From assembly GCA_040367435.1 (NCBI GenBank), contig BAABWY010000002.1, positions 62,001-126,000 of the forward strand: a stretch of DNA of 64,000 nucleotides, written 5' to 3'. Below are positions 41,445 to 62,863 of the stretch, piece after piece. The DNA is from Hyphomicrobiales bacterium 4NK60-0047b (GTDB lineage: Bacteria; Pseudomonadota; Alphaproteobacteria; Rhizobiales; HXMU1428-3). The translations under genes were made by a program, and so were the position numbers. Under the pieces are notes generated by a model. The model made no database searches and had not been told where the DNA came from. It saw only the letters and a list, made by a program, of their open reading frames with translations. Position 1 is the stretch's first letter, and the number at the start of each line of letters is the position of its first letter.

Positions 41445-41550
41445 GTATTTTCTTTCATTAGGTAAAGGCTTATTCGTCAGCCATCTTCGAATTACCTATA
41501 CGAAGAAGGAGTACTGCCTTCTCTCAAGGCAGTAGGACATGGCGAAGCTT

Positions 41551-41628
41551 CAGCGTAGCCCGGCGCGTTGCGCCGCCTCTCGGAGGCCCATGAGCTTCAG
41601 CTCATGGAATAGCCGTGAGAGAAAAAAA
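41551..41628 (+). repeat. Compound hairpin repeat, copy 1
   Basis: Three hairpins in series: CGGCGC-GTT-GCGCCG (41551-41565), GCCTC-TCG-GAGGC (41565-41577) and CCATGAGC-TTCA-GCTCATGG (41578-41597). They are followed by ATAGCCGTGAGAG and an A run. CTCTC and GAGAG can also close an outer stem. Copy 2 has the same order with different but still paired stem bases. Confidence 0.65.
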
Positions 41629-41641
41629 TACGCAGCAGCTA

Positions 41642-41672
41642 GCGCGGTTGCTAAATGGGCAAGCTAAAGCGC
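41642..41672 (+). repeat. TGAA-bulge-type hairpin element (between infC and flavoprotein gene)
   Basis: Lower stem GCGC (41642-41645) with GCGC (41669-41672), upper stem GGTTGC/GCAAGC with one mismatch, loop TAAATGG, and TAAA in the 3' bulge position. It sits between the two compound hairpin copies. Confidence 0.6.
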
Positions 41673-41690
41673 AAATAAAAAAGAGGCCGT

Positions 41691-41754
41691 CAGTGCGTTG
41701 CACTGCACCTCATAGGGCGGCAGCTTCGCTGCCATTGCCCGTGAGAGAAAAAAA
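41691..41754 (+). repeat. Compound hairpin repeat, copy 2
   Basis: CAGTGC-GTT-GCACTG (41691-41705), a weak CCT/AGG stem, and GGCAGC-TTC-GCTGCC (41719-41733), then ATTGCCCGTGAGAG and an A run. CTCA/TGAG and GGGC/GCCC pair in the outer stem, where copy 1 has CTCTC/GAGAG and GGC/GCC. Stems changed on both sides together. Confidence 0.65.
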
Positions 41755-45700: not shown

Positions 45701-45778
45701 CGGATGCCGGACCGGTTACCTTGTGGGTAACTTGAGGGAGTACCTGCGACGGTTGCTAGTGGGCAACCGAAGGAGCAC
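45701..45778 (+). repeat. Pair of TGAA-bulge-type hairpin elements upstream of htpX
   Basis: Element one: GTTACC (45715-45720), loop TTGTG, GGTAAC (45726-45731), then TTGA and GG able to pair with an upstream CC. Element two: CGGTTGC (45750-45756), loop TAGTGG, GCAACCG (45763-45769), then AAGGAGCAC. Both lie in the presumed htpX leader, the second within 25 bases of the start codon. Confidence 0.6.
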
Positions 45779-45799
45779 TAAAAGAGAAAGAAACAAAAA

Positions 45800-57437: not shown

Positions 57438-57599
57438 ATGACAAACAAGAGTAAAAATGCAAACGATCGAGAAAATCGTTTAAAAAACAATTTGCGATCT
57501 AATTTGCAAAAACGCAAATCGCAAATCCGCGCCCGCAAAACTGAAGAGAATTCTAAAGAAGACAGCCCCAAAGAAGATAACAAAGACACTAAAGAATAA
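57438..57599 (+). CDS. Small basic protein upstream of murA
   Basis: A 53-codon frame (MTNKSKNANDRENRLKNNLR, then SNLQKRKSQIRARK and an acidic tail) with AAAGAG before the ATG. The LKxNLxxRKxQxRARK core resembles a small conserved protein often encoded near murA in Hyphomicrobiales, but this is recalled rather than searched. It is likely helical and nucleic-acid-binding by charge. No other gene occupies the region. The call is tentative. Confidence 0.6.
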   Translation: MTNKSKNANDRENRLKNNLRSNLQKRKSQIRARKTEENSKEDSPKEDNKDTKE

Positions 57600-57660
57600 C
57601 CCCGCTTGATTTAAGGTAACGAATAAAGCACAAAAATCCGACGATTGCTTTTTACGGATG

Positions 57661-57806
57661 TTCGCACCGGTTCCCTCGTGGGTAATCTGAAGGGCCACAA
57701 AATAGCCCGGTTGCTTGTGGGCAACCTGAAGGGCCACAAAATAGCCCGGTTGCTTGTGGGCAACCTAAAGGGCAACTAAGGCGGATGCTTCGTGGGCATC
57801 TGAAGC
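57661..57806 (+). repeat. Array of TGAA-bulge hairpin elements in the murA leader
   Basis: Four elements: a degenerate one near 57669-57694; two near-identical units with GGTTGC (57709-57714 and 57748-57753), loop TTGTGG, GCAACC, bulge TGAA or TAAA, and lower stem GCCC/GGGC; and one with GATGC/GCATC (57784-57788 and 57796-57800), loop TTCGTGG. The first three repeat with a period of 39-40 bases, sharing GGGCCACAAAATAGCCCGG. The last element ends 28 bases before murA. Confidence 0.7.
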
Positions 57807-57833
57807 CTTTTTAAAAAAGAGAGAGAATGCAGA

Positions 57834-59123
57834 ATGGATAAAATTGAAATCACTGGTGGCAATGAACTCAATGGTCAGATTCAAATCAGCGGCGCAAAAA
57901 ATGCAGCCCTCCCATTGATGATCACCAGTTTGCTCACTCCAGACACACTCACATTAAAAAACGTTCCAAACCTAAGAGACGTCAATCAACTCAAAAAAAT
58001 TCTGGGTAACCACGGTACAGACCTAACTGTTGAAGGTAAACGCGCCAATGGTAACAAATATGCTGGTGAAACATATCATCTCACAGCAAGAGATATTGTC
58101 GACACAACAGCCCCCTATGAAATGGTCTCAACCATGCGCGCAAGTTTTTGGGTACTTGGCCCCATTCTAGCACGTTGCCATGAAGCAAAAGTATCCTTGC
58201 CTGGTGGCTGCGCTATCGGCACACGCCCTGTTGATCTTCACTTAGCTGGGTTAGAAGCACTCGGCGCACAGATCGAACTCAAAGATGGTTATGTCATCGC
58301 AAAAGCCCCCGGCGGTCTAAAAGGCGGACATGTTCGCTTTCCAAAAGTCTCTGTTGGCGCCACCATCAATGTTCTCATGGCTGCCACCTTAGCCAAAGGT
58401 GAAACAATTATTGAAAACGCCGCAACTGAGCCAGAAATCGGTGACGTTGCAAATTGCCTTGTTAAAATGGGGGCCAAAATTGAAGGTATCGGTCGCAAAA
58501 CCATGCACATTCAGGGCGTTGAAAATCTAGAAGGCGCTGTTCATAACGTTCTGCCAGATAGAATTGAAACAGGCACCTTCATGATGGCTGTTGCTGCAAC
58601 TGGCGGCGAAGTTGAACTTCTGGGCGCTGTTCCAGAGACTTTAACAGCCGCCATCGAAGTGCTACGTGAAGCTGGTGTATCAATAACCGAAACACCCAAG
58701 GGCTTATTGGTCAAACGCGAAGGTGACAGTATCAAACCAGTTCACATTGAAACCCAACCCCATCCTGGTTTCCCAACTGATTTACAAGCTCAGCTTATGG
58801 GCCTCATGACCATAGCTGATGGCCGCTCGGTTATTCGAGAAACAATTTTTGAAAATCGCTTCATGCATGTGCAAGAGCTCGCCCGTCTTGGTGCGAATAT
58901 CAGCCTGAATGGCGACACAGCCATCGTCGAAGGTGTAAAAGAATTACGCGGCGCTCCCGTCATGGCAACTGATCTTAGGGCCTCAGTCTCACTTGTCATA
59001 GCTGGCTTGGTTGCGCAAGGTGTAACAACCGTCAACCGAGTATATCACTTGGATCGCGGCTTTGAACGTATTGAAGAAAAACTCGGTAATTGCGGCGCAC
59101 AAATCAATCGCGTAAGCGACTAA
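57834..59123 (+). CDS. murA: UDP-N-acetylglucosamine 1-carboxyvinyltransferase
   Basis: MurA performs the first committed step of peptidoglycan synthesis, adding enolpyruvate to UDP-GlcNAc; it is the fosfomycin target. The 429-residue protein has [20 protein letters not shown] at the start and the catalytic Cys in [15 protein letters not shown], the canonical Cys form that would be fosfomycin-sensitive. Other landmarks are [10 protein letters not shown] and [31 protein letters not shown] precedes the ATG. The leader carries the hairpin array. Confidence 0.97.
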
Positions 59124-62027: not shown

Positions 62028-62441
62028 AACAGCAAAAGAAAAACCAATTCAAAAACTCTCAAACCAGAGCTCAGACTTAAAATTTGTGTGAAAATCAGCT
62101 CAAACCTATAAAACTCTTCTCATTTCTTCCCCTTTTTTCCTCTATTATCAAGCGAAAGACACAAATTGTGCACGTGACTGCAATTGAGCACTTGATTTTA
62201 TACGCGTGAAGAAGGAAACTCCGGCGCAACAAAACTTTTATCAAAGACCTCTGAATAATGAGGAATTTTTGGTTCTGGCATTAGACAATGTGAAACTGCG
62301 GATGCTATGTGGGCATCTTAAGCACCGTTAAAAAGAACGGAACATAGATATAACTATTTGAGTACCACAAGTGAACATTGACGACGCCAGAAACAAAAAG
62401 AACCATTATGCAGAAGTCTTTATCAAGAAATGAAGGAATTT
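62028..62441. other. Long leader region upstream of infA
   Basis: About 410 bases without a protein gene. It contains one hairpin element (62299-62322) and presumably the infA promoter. No other structure was convincing. Confidence 0.45.
62299..62322 (+). repeat. TGAA-bulge-type hairpin element upstream of infA
   Basis: GATGC (62301-62305), loop TATGTGG, GCATC (62313-62317), then TTAA in the bulge position and GC able to pair with the GC at 62298-62299. Same layout as the murA and maf copies. Confidence 0.6.
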
Positions 62442-62660: not shown

Positions 62661-62726
62661 ACCTGTAATTGTACGATCAATGTAATTAGAACGTTTTACC
62701 ATAAGTGGATACCGTTTTAGGAATAG

Positions 62727-62788
62727 CGCAGTTGCTTTTTGCGGATGCTTTGTGGGCATCTGAAGCACAGAAAAGAGCAACTGAAGCG
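62727..62788 (+). repeat. Nested pair of TGAA-bulge hairpin elements upstream of maf
   Basis: The inner element is GATGC (62744-62748), loop TTTGTGG, GCATC (62756-62760), bulge TGAA, with GC/GC below. It sits in the loop of an outer element whose CAGTTGCT (62729-62736) pairs with AGCAACTG (62776-62783), overlapping a TGAA-type bulge and followed by GCGC, which can pair with the GCGC just upstream. Confidence 0.7.
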
Positions 62789-62863
62789 CAAATTAAGAAT
62801 CTAGAGCATTTCATTAAATTCATCAAAAAAGTAAAGCTCTAGTGATAAATTGAGGATGGATTT

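Follow-up and report, generated by a model that had tools for sequence, protein, structure and literature searches.

The hairpin array upstream of murA

The window, the whole stretch of 64,000 nucleotides analysed here, carries a murA gene, whose named relatives belong mostly to Hyphomicrobiales/Rhizobiales, preceded by an array of hairpin repeats and, farther upstream, by a small open reading frame (Table 1). The array comprises four units, spaced 39, 39 and 35 bases apart, and ends 24 bases before the murA start. The units share one anatomy: a lower stem, an upper stem, a loop with GTGG at its 3' side, a GAA-type bulge and a closing lower arm. Units 2 and 3 are nearly identical, their upper stems being GGTTGC/GCAACC, while unit 4 is of a GGATGC/GCATCT type, so that both arms have changed. 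This layout and the paired change of the upper stems had been recognised in an earlier note, made from the letters alone, and both are present at the array, with small corrections of position. The same note had assigned a 39-40 base period to three units and a gap of 28 bases to murA; the gap is 24 from the true end of the stem and 27 from the end, 57806, that the note itself had given.

Table 1. Features in the window, with strand and basis of assignment
Feature	Position	Strand	Basis
M element	41500..41622	+	model R2, 97.1 bits
Unit adjoining M	41639..41679	+	model R1, 33.2 bits
Partial M element	41675..41748	+	model R2, 25.5 bits
Unit	45744..45782	+	model R1, 39.3 bits
Small ORF (53 aa), 5' of array	57438..57599	+	read from sequence
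Apparent degenerate left arm of nested composite unit (CGACGATTGCTTTTTACGGATGTT)	57639..57662	+	by reading, composite-like
Unit 1, degenerate hairpin	57664..57695	+	sequence; repeat families D1/D2
Unit 2, GCCC-GGTTGC-TTGTGG-GCAACC-TGAA-GGGC	57705..57734	+	sequence repeat
Unit 3, as unit 2 except bulge TAAA	57744..57773	+	sequence repeat
Unit 4, AAGGC-GGATGC-TTCGTGG-GCATCT-GAA-GCCTT	57778..57809	+	sequence repeat
murA	57834..59123	+	ORF; relatives found
Unit, GGATGC type	62293..62332	+	model R1, 24.9 bits; present in G003
Composite: GGATGC-type unit in loop of GTTGC-type unit	62723..62796	+	absent from G003

A covariance model of the unit matches units 2 and 3 at 57702-57740 (56.6 bits) and 57741-57780 (63.7 bits), respectively. 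The array region is predicted to fold better than its shuffled versions both as RNA (z -2.21) and as DNA (z -2.43). The predicted minimum-energy RNA structure pairs unit 2 with unit 3 instead of forming four separate hairpins, while units 2 to 4 are separate hairpins in the predicted DNA fold. By pattern, the part of unit 4 at 57787-57809 is a terminator-like hairpin followed by TTTTT, and it is kept in G003, a close relative of the same genus.

Leaders of murA were compared among seven genomes of the genus, the G005 locus having stopped short of the leader. Units lie within 400 nt of the murA start in G000, G002, G003, G006 and G007, in five arrangements, and no unit was found within 500 nt upstream of the gene in G001 and G004, where an M-like match (see below) lies 499 and 644 nt upstream, respectively. 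By reading, a sequence similar to the small upstream ORF precedes murA in G001-G004. In the leaders of L057 and L261 a unit is found about 345 nt upstream, in or near a small upstream ORF, and a second unit is nested, again by reading, in the loop of a unit. In G006 (L260, 8292-8326, minus strand) the unit stops 3 nt before the start codon, and on reading it seems to supply AAGGAG as a possible ribosome-binding site for murA; units with a GGAGC lower arm could likewise provide such sites elsewhere.

A dispersed family of units and a larger element, M

The murA array is one island of a dispersed family of units of about 38 nt, not a leader specific to murA. Searching the genome by blastn with the 251-bp array region returned at least 55 matches at E<=1e-3 when 40 of 215 candidates were scored, a count that includes the array itself. 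For the covariance model, built from 15 units with the GGATGC variant left out of the seed, scoring 150 of 2860 candidates yielded at least 167 matches at E<=1. A genome search with such a model had been proposed in the earlier note as a check on its reading, and further copies are thus many. Within 622,620 bases, made up of the window and fetched loci, 282 matches were found at E<=0.01, a figure which does not measure density, the loci having been chosen for carrying units. Islands lie mainly between genes: 161 of the 175 classified ones are outside ORFs of at least 100 aa. Units were detected at E<=1e-3 in 9 of 61 genomes: the eight of the genus, without exception, and G059, which belongs to another family. 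Within the genus, the matches per genome numbered anywhere from 4 to over 100 in one search.

The limits of the unit were read from solitary copies, 31 out of 51 of which could be anchored: conservation starts at about T/AGCGC and fades in an A-rich tail after CACTAA. The units are arranged head to tail in tandem and are also nested in each other's loops; several composites, among them the one listed in Table 1, hold a GGATGC-type unit in the loop of a GTTGC-type one, both in the same orientation. Near 62700 in the window, as well as at several solitary units, the unit is preceded by a sequence resembling ACCGGTTTTAGGAT, which suggests that yet another repeat serves as host.

Many units lie inside or beside a second repeat, M, about 115 nt long and containing four hairpins, in the order ACGAAGAAGGAG, hairpin 1, GGACATG, hairpin 2, hairpin 3, CCTCGTAGGC, hairpin 4, GAATAGCCGTGAGAG; the grammar of hairpin 4 resembles that of the unit. 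M is more widespread than the genus, being found in 20 of 61 genomes, from 13 of 54 genera, at E<=1e-3. A search of 297 genomes in the order, at E<=1e-6 and with 12 candidates scored per genome, detected it in 32, which represent 14 of 122 genera. A comparison of M with 80 named murA loci, covering a few kb per genome, returned only L057, from the MAG Hyphomicrobiales bacterium OFTM288, below E 0.1.

Compensated change is strong in M. In an alignment of 131 copies, from 95 own-genome sources, 93.4% of the pair cells are standard pairs, against 75.1% in shuffles, and the covariation score is 0.417, against 0.144 in shuffles and 0.064 in the best slid version. Double changes are seen in all 31 pairs, against 20.6 in shuffles, a count that leans upward because the alignment was fitted to the structure; a MAFFT alignment of 12 copies shows them in 17 of the 31 predicted pairs. 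For the units, the best 150 of the 282 matches, making up 140 distinct rows, were analysed: standard pairs fill 93.5% of the pair cells and the covariation score reaches 0.163, compared with 86.6% and 0.075 in shuffles. Two of five measures, however, fail to exceed the shuffles, namely pairs with double changes (4 against 3.1, with 64 of 500 shuffles reaching 4) and further pair types (13 against 12.3, with 208 of 500 reaching 13). Of the pairs with double changes, three belong to the lower stem, which has four pairs, and one, with 3 cells, belongs to the upper stem. Compensated change in single units is therefore real, though it rests on few changes, and the strong covariation is that of M. 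The earlier note had made its case depend on statistically supported covariation, and this is found relative to shuffles, strongly in M and modestly in the units. Its proposal of selection on structure is compatible with these results, but correction of DNA templated by the opposite arm could mimic the same pattern.

In the 131 copies of M, every insert of at least 25 nt, 68 in all, lies in a hairpin loop: loops 1 to 4 hold 5, 4, 27 and 32 of them, respectively. Inserted stretches elsewhere stay below 15 nt. These counts describe the copies found, some of them adjacent rows, and the model may miss M elements whose stems are broken by an insert. The inserted sequence matches the unit on the same strand in 39 out of 68 cases and on the opposite strand in two, both in loop 1. 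By eye, 17 more inserts correspond to a third element of about 52 nt, GATCAGCC...GCTGATCGCAAAAAA, located in loop 3 (examples are L192 5052-5224 and L024 1483-1686). On reading, a unit inserted into hairpin 4 takes the place of its 3' arm in several copies.

Differences between close relatives were followed in a comparison with G003 over stretches of 164 kb and 152 kb; aligned blocks longer than 500 bp are 80-96% identical in DNA. All 24 and 22 unit matches, respectively, lie on one strand, and several sites are common to both genomes almost letter for letter. Since many sites are shared, recent insertion is infrequent. Among the differences are units lost or gained, the junctions lying in unit repeats, one M shortened internally and one island, with one detected unit, found only in G003. 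At the murA array, the junction of the difference from G003 lies within the composite-like left arm at 57639..57662. The junctions of copy-number differences fall at TTGCTT at murA and, near position 90679 of the joined stretch, at a repeat of 12 bp, and several of the differences look like tandem loss or gain at repeats.

Together, dispersed copies, nested copies and differences in presence and copy number between close relatives bear out the suggestion, made in the earlier note, of a mobile palindromic family.

Orientation with respect to replication and genes

Both repeats have a strong strand preference. In 1,079,660 bases of the own genome, about a third of it, with many stretches selected because they carry units, the strand having A>T at fourfold sites holds 297 of 310 units and 116 of 120 M elements. 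This strand was assigned contig by contig; by covariance model the figure for M is 125 of 131. Thirteen units and four M elements are exceptions, and 5 of the 185 islands hold copies on both strands. The rule also holds in own-genome stretches that had been selected on other grounds than the presence of units, for 47 of 48 units and all 28 M. The majority strand of the units, as judged from skew at fourfold sites, has A>T in all 11 contigs and C>G in 9, the G/C skew dissenting in contigs C9 and C12. A 20-kb stretch of contig C6, in which the G/C skew is near zero, contains no element.

As GGGNAGGG (32:14) and tRNA genes (9:4) favour the opposite strand, that of the elements is read as lagging, the direction of replication being the one implied by skew; contig by contig, the counts of GGGNAGGG are small and mixed. 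The mnmG gene was considered as an origin marker and discarded: on contig C2 the units on either side of it share one strand, and hence no origin is indicated there.

Gene context was assessed for 185 islands, 10 of which, at edges, were set aside, with ORFs picked mechanically. Islands flanked by two lagging-strand genes lie in sense, on the lagging strand, in 58 of 59 cases; islands flanked by two leading-strand genes still lie on the lagging strand in 28 of 32, antisense to both neighbours. The same strand is occupied in 47 of 50 islands between convergent genes, in 20 of 20 between divergent ones and in 13 of 14 inside ORFs of at least 100 aa. Orientation thus follows the replication strand far more than the genes, whose direction matters little; because islands are commoner between lagging-strand genes than between leading-strand ones (59 vs 32), gene direction has a secondary effect.

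Polarity is found in other genomes as well. In G004, of the same genus, 47 of 50 M elements lie on the majority strand of their contig, a count that includes two contigs with one M each; on a 1.32-Mb contig the figure is 9 of 9, and the three contigs whose skew was sampled are in agreement. G032 belongs to another family; its eight contigs with at least two M each keep to a single strand, for 30 of 30 copies, and one M is present on each of four further contigs. Where skew was sampled in G032, all four contigs have M on the C>G strand, and the A/T skew, which is weak, agrees in only one of them. The 62 weaker M matches of G018, spread over many contigs, are mixed, often inverted and without polarity; often forming inverted pairs, they are perhaps a different repeat family.

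Wobble pairs give an indication of which strand folds. On the strand written here, G.T exceeds A.C both in M (148 vs 85) and in the units (45 vs 25), which is only suggestive of folding by the written strand and not by the lagging-strand template, the rows being non-independent and the model favouring G.U.

Modes of spread and comparison with known systems

Polarity along the replication strand over gene direction, insertion into loops and strong stem covariation are three testable marks which, taken together, point to single-strand chemistry at forks. Dispersal and polarity are directly observed; as to mechanism we infer, with a probability of roughly 0.55, that the family is REP-like and moves in single-stranded form at replication forks. 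Copies would spread in folded form at the fork, where the loops of hairpins would be open targets and one strand would be favoured; tandem copies would afterwards expand and contract via slippage between repeats. For the murA array itself, the role of a passenger is the most likely one; it may have incidental effects, its last hairpin being, by pattern, terminator-like on the plus strand.

The enzymes expected of known systems were searched for. Y1_Tnp (PF01797), through which a RAYT/REP system was sought, gave no match in the own genome, where a very divergent protein or one falling in an assembly gap would escape; it was found in 1 of 8 genomes of the genus, being absent from 6 of 7 relatives, and in 5 of 14 members of the control set. 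Neither of the two copies in G003 has a confident unit or M within 1.5 kb on either side. RVT_1, through which a retroelement was sought, is missing from the own genome and present in 2 of 8 genomes of the genus; in G006 a unit (L278 1077-1114) lies 387 nt before a reverse transcriptase-like match. At gathering score, Rfam recognised only tRNA in the window; on seven M loci it gave nothing but sub-threshold matches on M itself, with tRNA, BjrC1505 and ffh elsewhere. The match to the alphaproteobacterial sRNA BjrC1505 is at L176 5657-5791 (57.8 bits). Plasmids searched with one M and phages searched with the murA array gave no match. With neither Y1_Tnp nor RVT_1 in the own genome, and with wobble favouring the written strand, a lost or divergent enzyme and fork-driven slippage with template switching remain as the live options.

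The second option leads to the strongest alternative, namely that the family is amplified without any transposase, folded strands slipping or switching template at hairpins during lagging-strand synthesis. Such a process would duplicate units in tandem, write them into loops and correct the arms of stems, and could thus generate polarity, nesting and compensated stems with neither an enzyme nor selection on RNA. It agrees with the lack of both protein domains in the own genome, with the junctions of copy-number differences in unit repeats and with the identity between the strand favoured by wobble and the one read as lagging; it hardly explains, however, the dispersal of a defined unit of about 38 nt to hundreds of sites, and we consider it rather unlikely. 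A similarly doubtful status is given to the claim that these are mobile structured repeats with neither a transposase nor a reverse transcriptase of their own, their folded single strands being written into loops at the fork: if true, nested hairpins all facing the same way with respect to replication would occur in more than one family of the order.

Alternatively, structured, A-tailed RNAs might be copied at forks by a reverse transcriptase, acting in the past or in trans. The 3' ends of the units and of the X element are rich in A, the stems of M covary, G.T exceeds A.C on the written strand and RVT_1 does occur in two genomes of the genus, all of which would fit; yet the own genome has no RVT_1, and genomes lacking it hold as many units as the two that have it, so that retro-insertion appears improbable. 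Polarity could also be the outcome of selection, if the repeats served as functional sites with a set direction, recognised for instance by a chromosome-organising protein or a translocating one, and copies in the wrong orientation were purged. High polarity and conserved letters in loop and bulge are what such sites would show, but the number of matches varies widely within the genus, from 4 to more than 100, and loop nesting and tandem arrays are not expected of them; we regard this as quite improbable. A cis-regulatory leader RNA of murA, for which the position just 5' of the gene, the RNA fold (z -2.21) and the terminator-like unit 4 could be invoked, is very improbable, as copies are found at many sites and in both gene orientations with little regard to gene direction, and in two of the seven genomes of the genus the 500 nt before murA hold no unit, while the arrangements in the others differ.

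The covariation carries a warning: repeat stems with compensated changes need not indicate a regulatory RNA. If the reading preferred here, spread as folded single strands at forks, is true, polarity could mark the direction of replication in draft genomes of this group. Among the titles and openings of abstracts listed by word matching in the open-access literature, none describes replication-polarised REP-like arrays.

The family resembles the REP/REPIN/BIME sequences associated with RAYT, which are likewise short, imperfect, bulged hairpins, present in high copy number, mainly intergenic and clustered. It differs from them in several respects. Those sequences go with a RAYT (TnpA_REP) protein, whereas Y1_Tnp was not detected in the own genome. 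According to the excerpts of PMC6006769, REPINs are inverted pairs, whereas the units are arranged head to tail on one replication strand. The GTAG-type foot of REPs, as given in excerpts of PMC3733652 and PMC6006769, is, by eye, not conserved in the 31 solitary units, whose conserved ends are T/AGCGC and CACTAAAA.

Similar in some features are the CGTC-tagged REPs, presented in the excerpts of PMC3733652 as palindromic, mainly alphaproteobacterial and apparently devoid of a dedicated transposase, their mode of movement being left open there. The palindromic character, the alphaproteobacterial host and, as far as Y1_Tnp goes, the apparent lack of a dedicated transposase are common to the family described here. 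The same excerpts report stems of 8-9 bp, a CGTC-type foot, a mainly head-head arrangement and negligible head-tail dimers, whereas, by reading, the units described here form head-tail arrays and have a stem in two parts, a bulge of GAA type and an A-rich tail. RIME and ABC palindromes, repetitive structured intergenic elements of rhizobia (excerpts of PMC2573895), are similar as far as their description goes.

Finally, IS200/IS605 elements and their relatives have in common with this family the use of hairpins and an orientation that follows replication, in their case because the lagging-strand template serves as both donor and target (excerpts of PMC5371812 and PMC6006769). They differ from it in three respects: no TnpA was found here, the units, of about 38 nt, have a different anatomy, and wobble favours the strand other than the lagging-strand template which those elements use.
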